Below, piece after piece: positions 9,169 to 19,728 of a stretch of 21,206 nt of DNA. The first letter of the stretch is position 1. Every line of letters starts with the position of its first letter. A program made the position numbers and the translations under genes. The stretch comes from a virus, in IMG/VR virus record IMGVR_UViG_3300030106_004651, positions 1,815-23,020 of that record. One strand, written 5' to 3'. The notes beneath the pieces were generated by a model that was given only the letters and a program-made list of their open reading frames with translations, did no database searches and had not been told where the DNA came from.

Positions 9169-9390
9169 ATGAAGGAAATCATAACAATGGTCAAAGGATA
9201 CACGGATGACTTAGCTCATCTACTGATGTCTTTTGTAGCCATAGGTGCTGTATCCGAAGTCATTTTTGGAAGTGGTATCTTTGGTGTCAATGTTATTGGT
9301 AACCTGACATCAATCATAAACAAGTTCGGCGAATCTGGTTTCGCTGGACTCGTCGCCTTGTTGGTGTTGGTGGGTTTATTTCGTAAGTAG
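9169..9390 (+). CDS. small membrane protein, 73 aa, late-expressed
   Basis: The only plus-strand gene in the window. The 73-residue product has a short N-terminal amphipathic segment, a first hydrophobic stretch at about residues 18-34 (LLMSFVAIGAVSEVIFG), a Gly/Asn-containing middle, and a second at about 58-71 (GFAGLVALLVLVGLF), ending in Arg-Lys. Two short membrane spans or re-entrant helices are likely. A CGGAG ribosome site lies 8 nt before the ATG. Two late-promoter octamers and a hairpin precede it, and a strong terminator follows 46 nt after the stop, so it is a single-gene late unit. It could be a holin-like protein, a small virion membrane-interacting protein or an inner-membrane accessory; I do not recognise the family. 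Confidence 0.8.
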   Translation: MKEIITMVKGYTDDLAHLLMSFVAIGAVSEVIFGSGIFGVNVIGNLTSIINKFGESGFAGLVALLVLVGLFRK

Positions 9391-10382: not shown

Positions 10383-10633
10383 TATTCTTCTCCTATATAA
10401 CTTTGTAATTGATTTACTGTTTGTTTAATTTGTTTAAATATTGCTCCGATTTCATCATCGGATTCAAATACACCTCTTGAATCAATATCTTTTAATTCCT
10501 CTTGAATTGTTTGAATTGTATTTGAAAAGTTTTCTACCCATGTCTCTAAAAGTTCTGTTTTTTTATTTAGATTCCAAATCACATAACCCTCGGTAATGAC
10601 AAGTAATCCCAGTACGATTTCTAATATCATCAT
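10382..10633 (-). CDS. small membrane-anchored coiled-coil protein, 83 aa
   Basis: An 83-residue protein of unknown family. Residues 2-20 are hydrophobic (ILEIVLGLLVITEGYVIW), consistent with an N-terminal membrane anchor. The rest is an acidic helical region with heptad-like spacing (TIQTIQEELKDI, IGAIFKQIKQTVNQLQSYI) and a mid-protein break SRGVFESDDEI. It overlaps the HD-hydrolase gene upstream by 4 nt (ATGA) and the gp55 gene downstream by 1 nt, so all three are translated together. A role next to the late sigma factor is possible, but nothing in the sequence identifies it as the T4 co-activator gp33. Confidence 0.75.
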   Translation of the reverse strand: MMILEIVLGLLVITEGYVIWNLNKKTELLETWVENFSNTIQTIQEELKDIDSRGVFESDDEIGAIFKQIKQTVNQLQSYIGEE

Positions 10634-11406
10634 TTATCTCCAAATAATTCTTCAAATAAATCTTTTGATTTTTTTGATAATTGTTCAGATGTTTCTTCCA
10701 TAGTGACTGCTTTCTTTATATTGTCAACCCTACCTTGAACCTTGATTTCTTCTTTAGTGTTTTCTCTTATCCAGTCTTCATATTCAATTCTTGTAGTTGC
10801 CATGTCTGCTTGATGTAATATGTGGGGCATATTTGTTTTCAATTTTTTCTCTGGTGCATATGCTTTTAGATATTGTATATTACCCTCATCATACATACCA
10901 TCGGTCAGTTTTATTCCAATCATCTCATTCATAGTAATCTTAACACCAAACTGATTCAGTATCCAAATACCTCTATCAGGTGGTGTCATGAATTGTAACT
11001 CTGGATTATTCACATAATATTTACCTTGATTTTTAATATGCCACTCAGACTCATTTGGAATATAATGGTCTGATTCCAAATCACCGACTTTTCCTAAGTC
11101 ATGATGTAGAGCAGCAAACACTAGTTCCTCTTCAGTATAGTTATCAACTATTGCTCCATTATCCTTCCACAACTTGTGAAACTCTTTACTGAAATGAACT
11201 ATGTTTAAAATATGTTTTACATATCCACCTGGTGTGCAGAGGTGAAAATGTTCTTGACCGGAAGCTGGAGCTACACACATTCTATCCTCAAAGTGTTTAT
11301 ACATCTTGAGTAGATTTTCTTTTCGCTCACCGTCAAAAGTATCCTCTATTAGTTTTATTAGTTCGTTCCAATTTTCTTGGATTTGTTCGGGGGTAAATTG
11401 TATCAT
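10630..11406 (-). CDS. HD-domain metal-dependent phosphohydrolase
   Basis: A 258-residue protein with the HD-superfamily signature H...HD...D: GGYVKH with H65, ALHHDLGKVGD with H102-D103, and HILHQADM with D201. These residues bind one or two metals in nucleotide and phosphoester hydrolases. The intervening segment (IGIKLTDGMYDEGN) is typical of stand-alone phage HD hydrolases. The substrate cannot be read from the sequence; nucleotides, dNTPs or cyclic nucleotides are all possible. It lies 9 nt downstream of the dpdA gene in the same operon and overlaps the next gene by 4 nt, which suggests a link with nucleotide supply during DNA modification (for example trimming dGTP or GTP pools), but that is inference. 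Confidence 0.82.
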   Translation of the reverse strand: MIQFTPEQIQENWNELIKLIEDTFDGERKENLLKMYKHFEDRMCVAPASGQEHFHLCTPGGYVKHILNIVHFSKEFHKLWKDNGAIVDNYTEEELVFAALHHDLGKVGDLESDHYIPNESEWHIKNQGKYYVNNPELQFMTPPDRGIWILNQFGVKITMNEMIGIKLTDGMYDEGNIQYLKAYAPEKKLKTNMPHILHQADMATTRIEYEDWIRENTKEEIKVQGRVDNIKKAVTMEETSEQLSKKSKDLFEELFGDK

Positions 11407-11415
11407 TTTGTTCTC

Positions 11416-12600
11416 CTATTCAAAAAATGAGTGTTGTTTGACCTGAGTGTCTTTTCTGAAGTTACTCATCTTTGTGTAAAGTTGTTTATATTTTTCAAAT
11501 ACTTTTGTTGGTGAGTCATTCTTGACCATCTCATCAAGTGATTTCAAAAGATTATACATATCAGTTGATAGAACTTGAGTCAATATATGGTCATGACTAT
11601 GTACATAATACTCTGCTTTATCTATTGCTTCTTTGAATACCATGAAGTTGTGTAATCTCATTGCAGTTGTACATTGACTTTTCCACTCTATGGTGTCTTC
11701 CCAAGTAAGAGCTTCTCTGAGATATTCTCTATCGAACTCTGTGGAAACTGGTAGATATTTAAACACTTGGTCTTTAAAGGTATCATCATGTTTAGGAATA
11801 TTTATAGATTGAAAAGATGCTTTCTTGAAATTGTAATCCAAGTAGTAACCACCAAAAACCACAGACCTATCAGGTGATGAACTGTCTGTTGTTACGATTA
11901 CATCAGAACCTACTTCGCTTAATGACTTTTGTAATTGATTAAGTAGTAGGAAATCAGACACCTTAGATATACCCAAGATATGAAAATATTTATTTGTCTT
12001 TTTTAGATGTTCCTTACCATTGAGTAGAGATAGAACACCTGACATGAAAGCATATATGTTACGACCACCACCACCGACAGCCCAACCTTGAAACGGAAAC
12101 TGTTGTACTTGGTCGTACCAATGTTGATACTCAATTTCATTAGTACCTTGCACGACGTTTAGAAAGTCTACCTTACCGGTCTGTTTGTCTGCAAAGTACT
12201 TGAAGTTTTCTTTACTAATCTTAAGACACTCCTCATACATACCCTCGTATTTTATCTTTGGTGGTATATCAAGATTCATTGCAATATCTGAATTATTTTC
12301 CAACCAGATAAATACCTTTTCCAATAAAGACTTGTCCCACTTTAGAGCTCCTGATGCAATCTGAAACCCACCGGAATCACCCATGACAAGATTATCTTTT
12401 GTGAATCCATGTTCCCCATAGAGGTCATCATGTCTGAGAAAGTGTCCTGCAGATATCAAGAACTCTGTATGTCTATATTTCTCTGGAAAATCTTTGGAGT
12501 AAAATCTTGATGTAAGACCATTCTTTAATTTTAAATCTTTTCTCAATGCCTGACCAAAACCAGCAACAGAGAAAGATGGAAAGTATTTAAATTTACTCAT
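11416..12600 (-). CDS. dpdA: DpdA-type DNA guanine transglycosylase (TGT family)
   Basis: A 394-residue member of the tRNA-guanine transglycosylase superfamily, most like phage DpdA, which exchanges guanine in DNA for a 7-deazaguanine base such as preQ0. Visible TGT elements: GDSGGFQ with D75 (base-binding/catalytic Asp), NSDIAMNLDIPP with D111, the WAVGGGG loop (173-179, counterpart of the TGT GGLAVGE loop), HILGISK (207-213) and TTDSSSPDR with D239 as the likely nucleophile. The C-terminal CxCxxC-type zinc site of bacterial tRNA TGT was not seen, which fits a DNA-acting phage enzyme. It lies in one operon with folE, queC, queE and queD, which make its substrate, and overlaps the phosphoribosyltransferase gene by 4 nt. 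The DNA target is inferred from context. Confidence 0.88.
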   Translation of the reverse strand: MSKFKYFPSFSVAGFGQALRKDLKLKNGLTSRFYSKDFPEKYRHTEFLISAGHFLRHDDLYGEHGFTKDNLVMGDSGGFQIASGALKWDKSLLEKVFIWLENNSDIAMNLDIPPKIKYEGMYEECLKISKENFKYFADKQTGKVDFLNVVQGTNEIEYQHWYDQVQQFPFQGWAVGGGGRNIYAFMSGVLSLLNGKEHLKKTNKYFHILGISKVSDFLLLNQLQKSLSEVGSDVIVTTDSSSPDRSVVFGGYYLDYNFKKASFQSINIPKHDDTFKDQVFKYLPVSTEFDREYLREALTWEDTIEWKSQCTTAMRLHNFMVFKEAIDKAEYYVHSHDHILTQVLSTDMYNLLKSLDEMVKNDSPTKVFEKYKQLYTKMSNFRKDTQVKQHSFFE

Positions 12601-12998
12601 GTCAAGTAATCCTGTATTTCTTCACTATCATCTAACTCCCAGGGATAGACAATCCATTTATCACCCTTTTCGTGTATCCAATAATCCGGAACAACTATGG
12701 ATTGTTTGTGATAATGAAATGTACAAATTATATTGTGTTTATTTTGAAAATCTTTCAAGGTATTACCAGTATCTGCAATATCATCAACGACCAATATCTT
12801 TTTATCAGTTACTATTTTTCTATCGTAATAGTCCATTAGTAATGGTAAGTTTAATTTGTGGGATAATGACACTGCAATTGGTAAACCACCACGGGGTAAA
12901 CCGTACACTGCACCGACATCTAATTTATTCCGATTATACCAATTAGTAATAGAATTGATATAGACCTCGTATTGTTCCCAGTTTATAAATTCTTTCAT
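12597..12998 (-). CDS. phosphoribosyltransferase
   Basis: A 133-residue type I phosphoribosyltransferase. The PRPP-binding motif is at about 70-80 ([11 protein letters not shown]) and the N-terminal PRPP loop at about 31-38 (VYGLPRGG). These enzymes transfer ribose-5-phosphate from PRPP to a base, usually a purine. The protein is shorter than bacterial Hpt or Gpt (about 150-180 aa). The base specificity is not evident; guanine, hypoxanthine or xanthine are likely choices. It lies between folE and dpdA with 4-nt overlaps on both sides. DpdA releases free guanine as it inserts preQ0, so salvage of that guanine back to GMP, and thus to the GTP that FolE needs, would close a cycle; this is inference. 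Confidence 0.87.
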
Positions 12999-13624
12999 TT
13001 CAAATCCCTTATAAAGTTATAAAATTCTTCCCTTGCTCTATCGGAGTTTTTGAAAGCGTCACTTAGTTTTGCAGTTTTCATAGTTGCATCATGTTTGACA
13101 CCACGAACACAAGCACACATATGATTTGCCTCTACCATCACACCTACACCCAAATTATTCTCAGTAACTCTCTCGATGTGTTTGTGTATCTGCATTGTGA
13201 GATTCTCTTGTACTTGTGGTCTACGAGAGTAGAATTCAACAATTCTGTTCAGTTTACTCAGACCAATTATCTTACCGTCCATACTGGGTAGATAAGCAAC
13301 ATGAGCTTGACCTATGAATGGAAGATGATGATGTGAACACATTGAATGTACCTTGATATTACCTTGAAAAATAATTCCATCATACTTGTCAACATTATCA
13401 AAAGCTGTAATCTTAGGGGCCTCATTATAACATCCAGCAGCAAGGTCATTGACAAATGATTTCGCAACCCTCATCGGTGTATCGGAACTATTGGGGTCAT
13501 TTCTCCAATCTATGTTTAGAGCATCCATATAATGACCATAGTGGACAGCAGCTGCTTCAATCATCTTTTGTTTTTCTTCTTCACTTAATGGTCTGTTACC
13601 ATTTGCATATTTCAATTTACTCAT
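12995..13624 (-). CDS. folE: GTP cyclohydrolase I
   Basis: A 209-residue FolE that converts GTP to dihydroneopterin triphosphate, the first step to preQ0. Zinc ligands and active-site residues are visible: MCSHHHLPF with C96, H99 and H100, and HMCACVRGV with C170. The core [20 protein letters not shown] (117-136) and QENLTMQI segments are standard for the family, and length is close to bacterial FolE (about 220 aa). It overlaps queC by 4 nt upstream and the phosphoribosyltransferase by 4 nt downstream. In this setting it feeds QueD and the deazaguanine route rather than folate, since no other folate gene is present here. Confidence 0.97.
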
Positions 13625-14340
13625 TTACTATCCTTATATTTTGTGACATCTTTAATGTTTGCTTTTTGGAATGCTAGAATCCTATCTTTACATGCCCCAC
13701 ATTTACCACAACCATCCCCATTATAACAAGATATAGAATTTTCGAAAATATATTCAAAATTTAAATTTAATGATTTACATATTTCATGAGATTCTTTTAT
13801 TATATTGAATTTCTTTTTATCTACATACGGTAGGTAAAGATTTATATTCTCAGTATTGACATTACCTACCTTGAACGCATCTTCTAATTTTTCATAAAAC
13901 TCTGGTGTACAATCAGGTGGTATAATATTACCATCTCCAGCATGTACACCTAAAGAAACATCCACTCTAGTATTTGACTCTTTTGCTATAGATACTGCGA
14001 ACCCATAAAGAACAGATGAGAAGATAGCATTTCTATTTGGAACAAAATTCATCTTCATCTTTTTCTCATCTGTTTTACCCGTGGGTACATCAACATCAGA
14101 GCTCGTCAATGAAGAATTAAACGAACCAAATACGGATGACAAATCAACTCTTTGATTCGGTATTTTATATCCCTCGTACTCTAGATAATTTAAGATACGA
14201 GCTAATCCATCGAGTTCGACTTTATTCTTTTGTCCATAATAATAACTTATTGTATGGATGTCATAACCTTTCTCAATAAGATGTAGTAACAAAGCTGTTG
14301 AGTCTAAACCACCACTAAGACTTAGAATTGATTTATTCAT
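13621..14340 (-). CDS. queC: 7-cyano-7-deazaguanine (preQ0) synthase
   Basis: A 239-residue QueC, the ATP-dependent enzyme that turns 7-carboxy-7-deazaguanine into preQ0. The PP-loop SGGLDST is at 9-15, and the C-terminal zinc site has four cysteines C205, C211, C214 and C217 ([13 protein letters not shown]). The segment [13 protein letters not shown] (about 92-104) is the standard QueC nucleotide/substrate region. Length matches bacterial QueC (about 230 aa). No glutamine amidotransferase domain is fused to it, so this is plain QueC, not the Gat-QueC of phages that make archaeosine-type DNA. Its start codon overlaps the stop of the preceding gene by one base. Confidence 0.97.
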
Positions 14341-14690
14341 TATTCTCCAATCAAATCTTTTAATTTTACTAAAAATCCCATTGAGGTATTACTATCCCCA
14401 CCGGGTACTCGTCGAGGTTTCAATTTGGTTATCTTTTCTTTTAATCTATCCACACTTATTGTAAAACACTCGTCATCATGAACAAAATAAGTCCAATAGT
14501 CTGCCTGTGTTGTCCTTATACCTGATGGTTTATTCCTTGATTCATATTCGATATAAACATTACCAGTCTGTCTGGTTTTTCTATCATATTTTACCTCAAT
14601 GGTGGATTCTGAGAGCATTTTGTGAAATTTAGTCTCACCTTTTAATATACCCTCTTTCAAATCATATTTAAAATCCGAGTTATATTCCAT
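14340..14690 (-). CDS. putative PD-(D/E)XK nuclease-like protein, 116 aa
   Basis: A 116-residue protein with a block resembling the nuclease core of a small phage-borne PD-(D/E)XK family: FKYDLKEG with D10, STIEVKYDRK with E32-V-K34, then TGNVYIEYESR (42-52), PSGIRTTQADYW and a hydrophobic strand. In this family the ExK pair and upstream acid bind metal. The protein is short and lacks an obvious extra DNA-binding domain. It overlaps queC by one base downstream and the small membrane protein by 11 nt upstream, so it is translated within the preQ0 operon. Nuclease activity is inferred from motif layout only; it could be an inactive relative or a DNA repair factor. Confidence 0.6.
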   Translation of the reverse strand: MEYNSDFKYDLKEGILKGETKFHKMLSESTIEVKYDRKTRQTGNVYIEYESRNKPSGIRTTQADYWTYFVHDDECFTISVDRLKEKITKLKPRRVPGGDSNTSMGFLVKLKDLIGE

Positions 14691-14916
14691 TTTTATTCCA
14701 ATTCAAATAACCGTAAACATTCAATCCCATAAGAACTACTGCTAGTAGGACTTGTGGGTTAGCATTTATCTTTACCGAGTAAACCAACATAAATAAGTTA
14801 CCGAGAAACCAAACTATCCAGGATAAATCAAGTTTCTTTGCGTTTAAGTAATATCCGAACAGTATACAAACTGTCCCTAACCATCCTATTATATCAAACA
14901 CCACGAATGTCTCCAT
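14680..14916 (-). CDS. small multi-pass membrane protein, 78 aa
   Basis: A 78-residue hydrophobic protein with about three predicted membrane spans: DIIGWLGTVCILFGYYLNA, LSWIVWFLGNLFMLVYSV and PQVLLAVVLMGLNVYGYLNW. The layout resembles short PnuC/SemiSWEET-like or CBU_0592-like small membrane proteins, but the family is not certain. Its start overlaps the end of queE by 23 nt. The ATG at 14916 has no good ribosome site; a GTG at 14904 (giving 74 aa) is preceded by GGAG with suitable spacing and may be the true start. A transport role for a nucleobase, nicotinamide riboside or queuine-like precursor is possible from its setting but speculative. Confidence 0.7.
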   Translation of the reverse strand: METFVVFDIIGWLGTVCILFGYYLNAKKLDLSWIVWFLGNLFMLVYSVKINANPQVLLAVVLMGLNVYGYLNWNKNGI

Positions 14917-15643
14917 ATGCTATTATGTGTAAACGGTCAGAATAATTATAACCTTGTTTTTGACAAATATCCATTAACCAAACTCTTCTTTCTTTTAATT
15001 GTTCCGGAGTAAGTCCTTCGGGCATCAACCAAACTTTATTATTAGGTATACCCAATTCATCCTGTATATAATCCAATTCCTGTAAATCGTTCCAACTTGA
15101 TATTACTGGTTTTAGTTGATAATCCGGATGATTATAAATGAGCTGCTCCATTGCTTCATAGTTACATCTCCACTTTTCATGTAACCGTTTATCTTTTTCT
15201 GTGACCTCACGATTTGCATAATCCATCCATGTACCGGGTTTAGGTGTTGAGTTCGAGAGTTTAGGTGATAAAGATATACAATCAGCAACTGTCTGTACAA
15301 ACTCACTACCCTCGGTCTCAATTGTTATTATGTGGTTGTATTTTTTTCCAATGATACATAACTCTTGTAATAACTCTGCGTGTATGGTAGGGCCACCACC
15401 GGTAATCATTGTGTGTTTTACATTAGGTTTTTCCTCATAGAACTTAACAATATCATCTAATGTGAACTTACCCTTTTCCGGTTTCCAAGATGCATAAGGT
15501 GTATCACAAAAGGAATCAGCAAACTGACACCTTAGTCTACAGCCAGTAACTCTGATTAGAATATGTGGAATCCCTATATACTTACCCTCTCCTTGTAGAC
15601 AGGTATACAGTTCTCCAATTGGTTGTAACTTTTGGTAATTCAC
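14894..15643 (-). CDS. queE: 7-carboxy-7-deazaguanine synthase (radical SAM)
   Basis: A 249-residue QueE that rearranges 6-carboxytetrahydropterin to 7-carboxy-7-deazaguanine. The N-terminus has the family's ELYTCLQGEG (11-20), IPHILIRVTGC (25-35) and a [4Fe-4S] cluster motif C35-x3-C39-x6-C46 followed by DTPYA. The usual radical-SAM spacing is Cx3Cx2C, so there is a four-residue insertion before the last cysteine. The SAM-binding motif reads TGGGPT instead of TGGEP. The start is a GTG at 15643 without a ribosome site, but a sigma70 promoter lies directly upstream, suggesting a leaderless message. The protein N-terminus fits the family length, so a later start is unlikely. The 3' end overlaps the membrane-protein gene. 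Confidence 0.94.
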   Translation of the reverse strand: MNYQKLQPIGELYTCLQGEGKYIGIPHILIRVTGCRLRCQFADSFCDTPYASWKPEKGKFTLDDIVKFYEEKPNVKHTMITGGGPTIHAELLQELCIIGKKYNHIITIETEGSEFVQTVADCISLSPKLSNSTPKPGTWMDYANREVTEKDKRLHEKWRCNYEAMEQLIYNHPDYQLKPVISSWNDLQELDYIQDELGIPNNKVWLMPEGLTPEQLKERRVWLMDICQKQGYNYSDRLHIIAYGDIRGV

Positions 15644-15649
15644 GATAGT

Positions 15650-15678
15650 AATATACGACTTTTTTTAATCAATGTCAA
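15650..15678 (-). promoter_or_regulatory. sigma70-type promoter of queE
   Basis: On the minus strand, TTGACA (15678-15673) is followed after exactly 17 nt by TATATT (15655-15650), a perfect -35 and 5/6 -10 element. Transcription would begin near 15643, the first base of the queE GTG start codon. The promoter sits in the 46-nt gap after the ParB-like gene and would drive queE through dpdA with host polymerase, independent of the late sigma factor. Confidence 0.8.
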
Positions 15679-15689
15679 GCACTTTTTTT

Positions 15690-16928
15690 TTAATAAGTTT
15701 CAATTATACTTCCAAGTGAAGCTGGAATACAATGAACATTTTTAGTTTTTCTATCTAATTTAAGCTTACCTGCAAATTCCATTAGTTGGACTTTTTGTAA
15801 CTCTTTTATATCCATATTTGCTGAATGACCACCTACAGCCTTTTTCCACACATCGGATTTTAAAATACCGTATGCACAATAGAAATCCTCATAATCTGAT
15901 GTAAACCCTAATAACAAATAATAACCAGCTTTAGGTTTTCTTGTAGTAAATTTGAGTTTATTACCATCTTTTATTATACAAGTCTTAACCTCAATACTAC
16001 CATTTAAAAAAGGTATGTCTATATCTTCTAGCCTTTGTCTACTGTCTGCTTTTGCAATAGCTTTATTGATAGCGTCAAGTTTACCATACTTAAAATTAAT
16101 ACAATCAGTTATTGCATTAGTGAATATTTCATGAGCAAAACCACCTAAAACATTTTGTTGTATGTTATCAAAAATATTAATATCTTTACCATCTCTACCG
16201 TTAAAAGAAATATTTTCTATTTGAGACATGACATTACTAACAGCACTTGCAGCAAAAACAATATCTTGTTTAGTCAATAATTCATCAAGAACAGTCGATG
16301 TTTTTAATTTAGCGTTATTTGCGGCATTCTTCCTATCTTTTAACATAGCACTGTGAGCATAACCAGGTGACATAGCAGAGCCATTTGTCTTTAACACTTT
16401 GACAAATTTACTACGACCATAAGTTTCATCATTATATAGTTCACGAAGTTGAGAGTACATATTGAAACTCATTTGAACCGTAGGACAAATAATTTCTTTA
16501 ATAACTTTATCTGTACATCTTTGACCTTTAGTAGCTTCGTAAGATTCAGATGCAGTTTTAATTTGATTATACTGACGAGCAATATCGGATGGTCTAGTTT
16601 GATTTTCCGCCATCAATGACATCATGTTATCAAAACCTCGTTGTGGTTTATCTACTATGGAAAATTGAACAGGTATTGTATCATGACCTAATTCGATAGT
16701 TAATTTATAACGAGTATGACCTGACTTTATAGTACCATCTTTATATATAACAATCGGATTTTTTAAACCCTTTAATCTTATATTGTTCTTTAAAGCTTTA
16801 TAATAATCACTATCATTTTCACCATATAAAACAGGATTATCAGGGTCTGATTTAACTTTATCGATGTTCATTATTGCATCGACTCGTTCTGTATTTTTAG
16901 TTATAAGGGGGTGTGTAAATTTAGACAT
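15690..16928 (-). CDS. ParB-like N-domain protein with putative nuclease C-terminus
   Basis: A 412-residue protein. Residues about 20-95 form a ParB/sulfiredoxin-like domain: VKSDPDNPVLYGE, LKGLKNPIVIYKDGTIKSGH and the GHTRY box (G70-H71-T72-R73) in the place of the ParB box II / Srx GxHR nucleotide-binding motif. Residues about 295-365 resemble a PD-(D/E)XK core: acids D302 and D304, then GSIEVKT with E313-V-K315, followed by alternating hydrophobic strands (YYLLLGF, FYCAYGIL). The middle is helical and Lys/Asn-rich. The gene lies inside the preQ0/DpdA cluster between queD and queE, with a 115-nt leader and GGAG ribosome site. A ParB-like partner, DpdB, is needed for preQ0 insertion in bacterial dpd systems, so a DpdB-like role is possible; a nuclease selective for unmodified DNA is the alternative. 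Both are inference. Confidence 0.75.
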   Translation of the reverse strand: MSKFTHPLITKNTERVDAIMNIDKVKSDPDNPVLYGENDSDYYKALKNNIRLKGLKNPIVIYKDGTIKSGHTRYKLTIELGHDTIPVQFSIVDKPQRGFDNMMSLMAENQTRPSDIARQYNQIKTASESYEATKGQRCTDKVIKEIICPTVQMSFNMYSQLRELYNDETYGRSKFVKVLKTNGSAMSPGYAHSAMLKDRKNAANNAKLKTSTVLDELLTKQDIVFAASAVSNVMSQIENISFNGRDGKDINIFDNIQQNVLGGFAHEIFTNAITDCINFKYGKLDAINKAIAKADSRQRLEDIDIPFLNGSIEVKTCIIKDGNKLKFTTRKPKAGYYLLLGFTSDYEDFYCAYGILKSDVWKKAVGGHSANMDIKELQKVQLMEFAGKLKLDRKTKNVHCIPASLGSIIETY

Positions 16929-17043
16929 TGTAAGTCTCCTATGTTAGTTATTGGCGCCTGGTGTTGGGTTCGAGTTACCACAGACTTAAAGGCTGCCGTT
17001 ATTAATTGTTAATAAGTATATTAAAATATTTCAAAATATGCTT
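16929..17043 (-). promoter_or_regulatory. structured leader between queD and the ParB-like gene
   Basis: The largest non-coding gap inside the modification module (115 nt). It holds a perfect 7-bp inverted repeat TTATTAA-TTG-TTAATAA (16999-17015), then a relatively GC-rich stretch (about 16950-16998 on the plus strand) with GGCGCC and CAACACCAG-type self-pairing. In the message, AAGTCT in this stretch is complementary to AGACTT, which overlaps the GGAG ribosome site of the ParB-like gene, so the site could be hidden. No preQ1 riboswitch signature was seen. A convincing promoter was not identified. Confidence 0.45.
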
Positions 17044-17487
17044 TTATTTTTCAATATGATATTCTGCCATGTTGTCATTATGTTCCCAGCACTGAACCTT
17101 ATGAACCGACACCCTACCGTTGGTTTCTTTGTCCACAATATCCTGTAGGTAGAGTGCAACATACTCAGCAAACTTCTCACAACCCACACCGTTGGGTAGA
17201 ACTCTTAGGTCTATGATACCTCGGTCATCCATCTCTTTGAATAACTCTAACTCCGGGTCATCAGCAGCTATACAGGTGGTATGGTCAAACATATTTTTCA
17301 ACCACTCCTTGACACCGTTTCGTTTGAAGCATCCGAAGTCAATCACCCAACCATTTTCGTCGAGCTCACCCTCGAACCAAACCTTGAAACAAAATGCATA
17401 TCCGTGAATCTTATTACAATGAGAATCAGCTCTCCATTGTCTAAAAGCTGTGCTGTATCCGATGAATCGTTTATAACTTCTATTCAT
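17044..17487 (-). CDS. queD: 6-carboxytetrahydropterin synthase, divergent
   Basis: A 147-residue QueD-type protein (6-pyruvoyl-tetrahydropterin synthase fold) that would convert dihydroneopterin triphosphate to 6-carboxytetrahydropterin. Recognisable features are SHCNKIHGYAF with the catalytic-type C24, GWVIDFGCFK (46-55), MFDHTTC with D68-H69, and a C-terminal CWEHND with E135. Two zinc-ligand positions are altered relative to E. coli QueD: the first His (AAHR) is replaced within STAFRQW, and the HGH pair reads HGY (H28-G29-Y30). H23 lies nearby and could substitute. It is the first gene of the module in transcription order, 17 nt after the 3D-domain gene. Context with folE, queE and queC supports the call. 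Confidence 0.85.
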   Translation of the reverse strand: MNRSYKRFIGYSTAFRQWRADSHCNKIHGYAFCFKVWFEGELDENGWVIDFGCFKRNGVKEWLKNMFDHTTCIAADDPELELFKEMDDRGIIDLRVLPNGVGCEKFAEYVALYLQDIVDKETNGRVSVHKVQCWEHNDNMAEYHIEK

Positions 17488-18650: not shown

Positions 18651-19103
18651 TTAAATTTTTATCGTTGTTTTCAACTGACCAAATCCACCCTCGTAAGCTC
18701 CACCGACAACTATCTCATACTCCCCAGCTGGGATGTCAATAGTTCGTTCTGTTTTATATAATTTCCACACATAGGTAAAATCCCTATATCTACCATCAGG
18801 CCAAGGGTCTCTAGTAAACGGTTGCTCATGAACTAATCTATTGGAATTTACATGGTAAATCCAAAGTTTAGTATTGCTTGAATTCACTCTATATCTTATC
18901 TTAACAATATCTCCGTCATCACCGTTCCATTTCTCATGAGTATCCTTCCATGCCATCAACGGAAATATATTGAATGAATCCTCATTCACAATAAAATCCT
19001 CTTTGATAATCTCTTTGGGTTTTGTAAGATAGATAAGAGATAAAGTTATGAATATTAGGACTACGACTATTCTCTCGACTAATTCGGTATCCAATCTAAT
19101 CAT
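18651..19103 (-). CDS. membrane-anchored beta-rich protein, 150 aa, unknown
   Basis: A 150-residue protein with an N-terminal hydrophobic anchor (about residues 9-27, VERIVVVLIFITLSLIYL), then a segment rich in charged residues, and a C-terminal beta-sandwich pattern (IVKIRYRVNSSNTKLWIYHV; TIDIPAGEYEIVVGG; GQLKTTIKI) like the FlgD/Ig-type fold. It would be exported and anchored with its domain outside the cytoplasm. Its start overlaps the end of the peptide-deformylase gene by 8 nt, so it is translated with it. No enzyme motif was seen and I do not recognise the family. Confidence 0.75.
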   Translation of the reverse strand: MIRLDTELVERIVVVLIFITLSLIYLTKPKEIIKEDFIVNEDSFNIFPLMAWKDTHEKWNGDDGDIVKIRYRVNSSNTKLWIYHVNSNRLVHEQPFTRDPWPDGRYRDFTYVWKLYKTERTIDIPAGEYEIVVGGAYEGGFGQLKTTIKI

Positions 19104-19728
19104 TTATTGTCCATCCTTGTTTTAACAGGTTGTGTGCTTTTTTGTACTTCATAATCTTTACTGCTGAACCTTTCTTGATTGTAACTAGCTGATTACGACC
19201 AATTTTTTTCTCAGCTTGAATTGTTGTGTCTCGTTGTCTATCCATTATTCTCATTCCATTTAAATGGTCTATCTCGTGCTGGACACAGACTGCTTCAAGA
19301 GTTCTAAGTTCAGCATTTTGTTTAGTCTTGTCTTTTTCCCAACTACCTTTACTATCATCAGATATATTAGGAACCCCACTAAAATACCAATCACTTTCTG
19401 ATTGTTCAGTTGATATCAATACGTCTCGGAATCTTTTGGTTTGTACTCCTTTCCCAGGAAAAGATAAACAACCTTCATAAAAAGGTATCTCGTTGAATGC
19501 TTCAAGAATCTTAGGGTTGATAAGAACCAAAGGCTCAATGACATTAACCACGGCAACTTGTGCATCAATTCCCACTTGATTAGCTGCCAACCCAATACCG
19601 TCCCCTCTTTTGTTAAGTATTTGAAATAGTTCTTCTGCAATTTCCATTCCTTCTTCAACTGACACCTCTCTTAGTTTTTTTTGTATTAGGGTATTTTCTT
19701 CTTTGAAACAATTTATAACGTTTTTCAT
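19096..19728 (-). CDS. def: peptide deformylase
   Basis: A 210-residue Def that removes the N-formyl group from new proteins. All three motifs are intact: GIGLAANQ (44-51), EGCLSFPG with C87 (metal ligand), and QHEIDHLNG with H151, E152 and H155. Length is greater than E. coli Def (169 aa) because of an insertion of about 30 residues (roughly 109-140, containing WYFSGVPNISDDSKGSWEK) between motifs 2 and 3 and a C-terminal tail. Deformylases occur in several marine phages, where they may support rapid host or phage protein turnover. It overlaps the upstream gene by 4 nt (ATGA) and the downstream membrane protein by 8 nt. Confidence 0.96.
   Translation of the reverse strand: MKNVINCFKEENTLIQKKLREVSVEEGMEIAEELFQILNKRGDGIGLAANQVGIDAQVAVVNVIEPLVLINPKILEAFNEIPFYEGCLSFPGKGVQTKRFRDVLISTEQSESDWYFSGVPNISDDSKGSWEKDKTKQNAELRTLEAVCVQHEIDHLNGMRIMDRQRDTTIQAEKKIGRNQLVTIKKGSAVKIMKYKKAHNLLKQGWTIND

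Follow-up and report, generated by a model that had tools for sequence, protein, structure and literature searches.

A probable autonomous operon for modifying DNA with 7-deazaguanine in an uncultured contractile-tailed phage, with an exchangeable tailoring slot in its relatives

The DNA analysed here (the window, 21,206 nucleotides) is part of the viral contig IMGVR_UViG_3300030106_004651, a fragment of 23,020 bases. T4-type baseplate genes (gp6-like and gp25-like) are present on the same contig, the source of which is a contractile-tailed phage, a myovirus. Beside them lies a block (Table 1) in which the frames of DpdA, FolE, QueC, QueE and QueD are all full-length and on one strand (-), between positions 11416 and 17487. 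The first-pass annotation had placed FolE, QueD, QueE and QueC together with a DpdA-type gene in one block, and this holds, all five genes being intact and having family matches and a conserved order; its gene list was incomplete, as the PRT, 116-aa, PnuC-like and ParB-N proteins of the block were not included. From QueE to DpdA there are seven genes, each overlapping the next by 1-23 bp (4 bp for QueC/FolE, FolE/PRT and PRT/DpdA). Because every gene overlaps the next, QueE through DpdA looks like one operon-like transcription unit; gaps of 115 and 46 bases follow QueD and the ParB-N gene, respectively. The 258-aa HD-domain-like gene follows DpdA across its clade, and its participation in the pathway is doubtful. 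The late-promoter pattern TATAAATA did not occur more often than expected by chance, and Megablast of the whole window against phages gave no match. Outside the window, the contig comprises a further 1.8 kb, in which a long tail-type frame continues and nothing else is encoded.

Table 1. Genes of the block and the gene 3' of it, with positions in the window and supporting matches
Feature	Position	Strand	Support
QueD, 6-carboxytetrahydropterin synthase, phage type	17044-17487	-	PTPS 1e-18; PHROG QueD 2e-36
ParB-N domain protein, 412 aa, variable cargo slot	15690-16928	-	PHROG ParB-like 4e-10
QueE, CDG synthase, GTG start	14894-15643	-	PHROG QueE 3e-42; Radical_SAM 3e-6; NCBIfam QueE models 1e-9 to 1e-15
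PnuC-like membrane protein, 78 aa, resembles C-terminal part of PnuC	14680-14916	-	NMN_transporter 3.5e-6
116-aa protein, phrog_13596, facultative cargo	14340-14690	-	PHROG 1e-25
QueC, 7-cyano-7-deazaguanine (preQ0) synthase	13621-14340	-	PF06508 5e-42; PHROG QueC 2e-49
FolE, GTP cyclohydrolase I	12995-13624	-	Pfam GTP_cyclohydroI PF01227 6e-48; PHROG GTP cyclohydrolase 3e-59
Phosphoribosyltransferase (PRT), Gpt/xanthine-guanine type, 133 aa	12597-12998	-	Pribosyltran 6e-11; NCBIfam xanthine PRTase 9e-8 (best)
DpdA-like DNA guanine transglycosylase (putative), 394 aa, TGT superfamily	11416-12600	-	TGT fold and catalytic aspartates
HD-domain-like protein, 258 aa, 3' of DpdA	10630-11406	-	phrog_5889 2e-12; MobH weak, 1e-3

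Two further features of the window were recorded. A peptide deformylase gene (19096-19728; Pfam 8.5e-24), located about 1.6 kb upstream of QueD, is kept in many relatives. A 73-aa open reading frame on the + strand (9169-9390), opposite to the module, is 88-97% identical among relatives, above its neighbours, and is probably a small conserved gene.

FolE, QueD, QueE and QueC were all recognised together by Pfam, PHROG and NCBIfam models. QueC contains the motifs SGGLDS and C...CGKCGAC and has no glutamine amidotransferase (Gat) domain. The cysteine motif of QueE is C35-x3-C39-x6-C46, which is kept in the relatives shown and represents a four-residue insertion in comparison with C-x3-C-x2-C. 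In QueD, the active-site Cys, Asp-His and Glu are kept, and two canonical zinc His are replaced by F and Y with respect to E. coli QueD. Since the QueDs of phages phiST, phiSM, immuto and MMDA13 carry the same F/Y pattern, the protein is considered a phage subtype rather than a damaged one, and the reading of this odd zinc site as a broken gene was dropped. No QueF, ArcS-like gene or Gat-QueC was found in the cluster on this 23 kb fragment, and no QueF above the cut-off was found among 20 related records; the weak QueF matches in three related records lay below the cut-off and probably represent FolE, a protein with the same T-fold.

The DpdA-like protein was below the cut-offs of the Pfam TGT (1.2e-4; 21.7 bits vs. 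26.3) and TIGR00449 (18.4 bits vs. 47.6) models and matched the PADLOC DpdA model at 6e-4, and no solved structure was matched in sequence searches with the protein or its profile. An AlphaFold model (mean pLDDT 73.9, 19 sequences) was then compared with the PDB by Foldseek, and all 11 matches at E<=1e-3 were TGT-superfamily structures (best 7a4x, 2e-9, TM about 0.5). In alignments with E. coli Tgt and phage DpdAs, residues D75 (DSGGFQ) and D239 (TTDSSSP) fall at the positions of the two catalytic aspartates of Tgt, and only the His (H317) of the structural zinc site of Tgt is kept, its cysteines being absent. In profile comparisons (hhalign), the E-values were 4e-38 for PA5oct-type proteins, 2e-15 for the GR7B type, 5e-6 for DpdA2 of Vibrio phage nt-1, 1e-3 for E. 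coli Tgt and 0.07 for DpdA1, kinship to nt-1 DpdA2 thus being stronger than to DpdA1 or Tgt. Judged by these profiles, the protein groups with DpdA2-like proteins of large phages and not with tRNA Tgt or DpdA1, and it likely forms a separate subgroup, PA5oct-type proteins being far closer than nt-1 DpdA2; in the DpdA tree the outgroup branches are long, and the deep order was not trusted. The first-pass annotation had called the protein a DpdA-type transglycosylase and had named structure prediction and a position apart from tRNA-acting enzymes as its checks, and both agree with that assignment: the predicted fold matches TGT enzymes alone at significance with both catalytic aspartates kept, and the profile is nearer to DpdA2-like phage proteins than to Tgt. 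The substrate would accordingly be expected to be DNA rather than tRNA.

Related loci were collected by searching 2.9 million viral contigs for matches to the window DpdA (34 loci) and by a DpdA profile search (71 loci, on contigs of up to 126 kb); records of related phages carry L numbers below. Most of the 34 loci keep the order QueD-(variable)-QueE-PnuC-QueC-FolE-PRT-DpdA. The order QueE-(PnuC)-QueC-FolE-PRT-DpdA is complete in 20 other viral contigs, 17 of which include QueD, some of these contigs possibly representing the same phage population so that the counts are not independent. Because this gene order recurs in 20 other contigs, the operon is not a chance arrangement. The slot between QueD and QueE is empty in relatives or holds unrelated genes (helicase-like, HNH-like and unnamed), and the idea that it always encodes a restriction enzyme was dropped, as its contents are unrelated and many relatives have none. 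In the window, this hypervariable slot is occupied by the ParB-N protein, which has a possible nuclease-like C-terminal half. The 116-aa protein is absent from most relatives and is found at another place in L026.

The step next to DpdA varies among these loci. Among operons with QueE in view, 21 have QueC, three have QueC together with an ArcS-like DUF5591 gene (Pfam 8e-11), two have a divergent QueC-like gene, three have a methyltransferase (281-aa) and 13 have a glycosyltransferase; the PnuC-like gene is kept in all 21 QueC-type operons. QueC and a GT4-type glycosyltransferase occur together in no locus, the two alternating. Five of the QueC-less records are 49 to 97 kb long, and QueC was not found anywhere in them, although they may be fragments. 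When the tailoring labels were placed on the DpdA tree, about 4 to 5 changes were counted by parsimony, a count inflated by near-copies, and a single QueC/glycosyltransferase swap is unlikely. In L069-L074, a SAM methyltransferase gene adjoins DpdA and QueC is missing (L070:5365-6210).

Very probably, the block is an operon by which a contractile-tailed phage modifies its DNA with 7-deazaguanine and which is complete in itself. Based on strong homology, FolE, QueD, QueE and QueC would convert GTP to preQ0. The TGT-fold DpdA would then swap guanine in finished phage DNA for preQ0 by means of D75 and D239. A precursor may be moved by the PnuC-like small protein. By analogy with phages CAjan and Rosebush, the modified guanines would block host restriction enzymes; the first-pass annotation had likewise described such phage systems as restriction-resistant, in line with the report that a dpdA knockout of CAjan loses both dPreQ0 and restriction resistance (PMC6884629). 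Each exchange by DpdA would free one guanine, which the PRT could return through GMP to GTP, the substrate of FolE, thereby closing a cycle.

Several lines of evidence bear on this last step. The PRT, encoded between FolE and DpdA, contains a PRPP-binding motif and has a PRTase family match, and its best family matches are xanthine and guanine PRTases, all below equivalog cut-offs (xanthine PRTase, the best, 31.9 bits vs. 138), so that its substrate is presumed from sequence to be guanine or xanthine. Matches to the PRT were found in 23 of 50,697 phage records, representing about seven phage types, six of which carry QueE-type genes, among them StAshley, with a FolE-PRT and, some 9 kb away, QueC, QueD and QueE; matches to the window QueE among phage records amounted to 130 in all. 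The near confinement of PRT relatives in cultured phages to 7-deazaguanine phages suggests guanine salvage. Moreover, the PRT accompanies QueC-, glycosyltransferase- and methyltransferase-type operons alike, which fits the handling of guanine, their common by-product. A different PRTase of the hypoxanthine-guanine type is present in L100/L101 (beside FolE) and L104/L106 (in the same block) (TIGR01203 5e-42 and 6e-41), with scores in L100 and L104 of 143.5 and 139.9 against the HGPRT cut-off of 150. The PRT is not essential, because it is absent from some glycosyltransferase-type operons (5 of 13) and from all three ArcS-type operons.

The salvage of DpdA-released guanine by the PRT is therefore proposed with modest confidence, and the main alternative is that the enzyme is part of general purine salvage that supplies phage DNA synthesis, its place here being due to chance. 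Genes of nucleotide metabolism are numerous in phages, and the PRT and Que genes of phiST are about 20 kb apart. Against a chance placement, FolE fusions in VpKK5 and MMDA13 carry an N-terminal domain homologous to the window PRT, and the FolE gene of Bhz54-type phages likewise has a PRT in its N-terminal part; in most other PRT-bearing phages the PRT adjoins FolE or DpdA, and its close homologs are nearly confined to 7-deazaguanine phages. Chance placement is thus rather improbable. No paper joining DpdA with a phosphoribosyltransferase was found in the literature search. Guanine salvage, if true, would provide a concrete answer to the fate of the guanine expelled by DpdA.

As for the inserted base, dPreQ0 at a fraction of G positions is the best prediction, because QueC is Gat-free and no QueF was above the cut-off in the 20 related records. 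In phages that combine DpdA with all four preQ0 genes and lack an amidotransferase, dPreQ0 has been reported at about 30% of G (PMC6884629). The prediction of dPreQ0 and the lack of QueF and Gat-QueC had both been put forward in the first-pass annotation and are retained here, the gene content being equal to that of the CAjan/Rosebush group, in which dPreQ0 was measured (PMC6884629). A different final base (such as dADG, dG+ or dPreQ1), produced by tailoring genes elsewhere in the phage genome or in the host, is conceivable for a 23 kb fragment, and L090/L092/L093 do have the ArcS-like DUF5591 gene beside QueC and DpdA. However, the tailoring genes of relatives lie inside the same block, and the window block contains none, neither QueF nor a Gat fusion, which makes another base unlikely. 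A role in auxiliary metabolism, with the gene products raising queuosine levels in the tRNA of host or phage and the TGT-like protein acting on tRNA, is very improbable: although the Que genes of Far-T4 phages were interpreted in this way in 2015 (PMC4360716) and the TGT superfamily is mainly tRNA-acting, the block lacks QueA, QueG and QueF (the last also missing above the cut-off in all 20 related records), its DpdA has no Tgt zinc cysteines and is nearer to phage DpdA2 than to Tgt, and a constant TGT-like gene combined with a variable last biosynthetic step resembles a base inserter with changing cargo, the constancy following by construction since relatives were found via DpdA. This evidence also speaks against interpreting similar operons as queuosine pathways.

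Besides the dPreQ0-type operons, the QueC-less relatives provide clues to other bases. A GT4-type glycosyltransferase gene lies beside DpdA in L083:6958-7989, L030:4341-5375, L103:7001-8008 and others, and the structures found with its model (pLDDT 86) are those of GT4 enzymes, BshA and MshA among them (7e-11). In L103, genes for a PfkB sugar kinase, a HAD protein, a cupin and a cytidylyltransferase are located between FolE and the glycosyltransferase, which suggests a dedicated sugar donor. A 115-aa protein, weakly QueD-like (hhalign 1e-4, probability 57%), is encoded in 11 of the 13 glycosyltransferase-type operons and could act on CDG; members of this family are seen in QueC-less 7-deazaguanine phages (phiST, L046:8022-8369; L083:5425-5769). 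Beside the PRT and glycosyltransferase of L083 lies a 263-aa protein (L083:5769-6560) with no Pfam match, the appearance of which suggests a putative 2-oxoglutarate oxygenase. In the cultured jumbo phage PA5oct (L040:5722-11050), DpdA, the glycosyltransferase (4e-98), a 125-aa QueD-like protein of the 115-aa type, a PRT-like protein and QueE are encoded together, all but QueE annotated as hypothetical. A glycosylated 7-deazaguanine is predicted for the glycosyltransferase-type relatives, and no description of such a base in DNA was found in the literature searched. It is tentatively proposed that these loci constitute a family with a constant DpdA and a swapped slot (QueC for preQ0; QueC with ArcS; methyltransferase; GT4 with sugar-nucleotide genes for glycosylated 7-deazaguanine), in which a guanine PRT would recycle the guanine displaced by DpdA across variants.

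With these findings, the known range of dPreQ0-type DNA modification would come to include a widespread group of contractile-tailed phages that have not been cultured. Phage 7-deazaguanine systems themselves are already known, and what is new here is the PRT link and the exchangeable tailoring slot in relatives. The replacement of QueC by a glycosyltransferase points to undescribed DNA bases, for which PA5oct is a cultured phage to look in.

Comparison with known systems reveals partial likenesses in several phage groups. In baseplate genes, Microcystis phage Mel-JY01 is the closest relative, and no Que gene is annotated next to them there. Clade 1 of the Far-T4 phages from Lake Pavin, compared by description, resembles the window in having Que genes, a GTP cyclohydrolase and a phosphoribosyltransferase within the structural module, and differs in that no DpdA was recognised and a role in queuosine auxiliary metabolism was assigned to the genes (PMC4360716). 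In Flavobacterium phage immuto (NC_055915), as in the window, a single block comprises QueD, QueE, PRT, FolE and a gene annotated as DpdA; among cultured phages its QueE (41.5%) and its PRT (40.5%) are the closest, and one of its baseplate proteins is related (38.9%). In contrast, a QueF is annotated in this phage, QueC is absent from the block, and the DpdA is short (264 aa) and unlike that of the window. Vibrio phage nt-1 shares the DpdA2 side of the family, with FolE, QueC and QueD-like genes nearby, but its DpdA (464 aa) has very low identity, an ArcS-like gene is present and no PRT was seen beside DpdA; its dPreQ0 content is only about 0.1% (PMC6884629). The cultured DpdA family closest by profile is that of the Pseudomonas phage PA5oct/Paride group, where the block also includes QueE and a PRT-like gene; the 540-aa DpdA, however, is followed by a GT4-type glycosyltransferase and the 125-aa QueD-like gene, with no QueC in a 12.7 kb stretch. 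Finally, the DpdA of CAjan (Escherichia) and of Mycobacterium phage Rosebush, which we take to be of the 9g type (DpdA1), differs from the DpdA2-like protein of the window, where a PRT and a PnuC-like gene are also present and the block lies beside myovirus baseplate genes. In gene content, these two phages (group 2 of Hutinet et al. 2019) have the same combination of DpdA with FolE, QueD, QueE and QueC and no amidotransferase, with dPreQ0 as the predicted product (PMC6884629).
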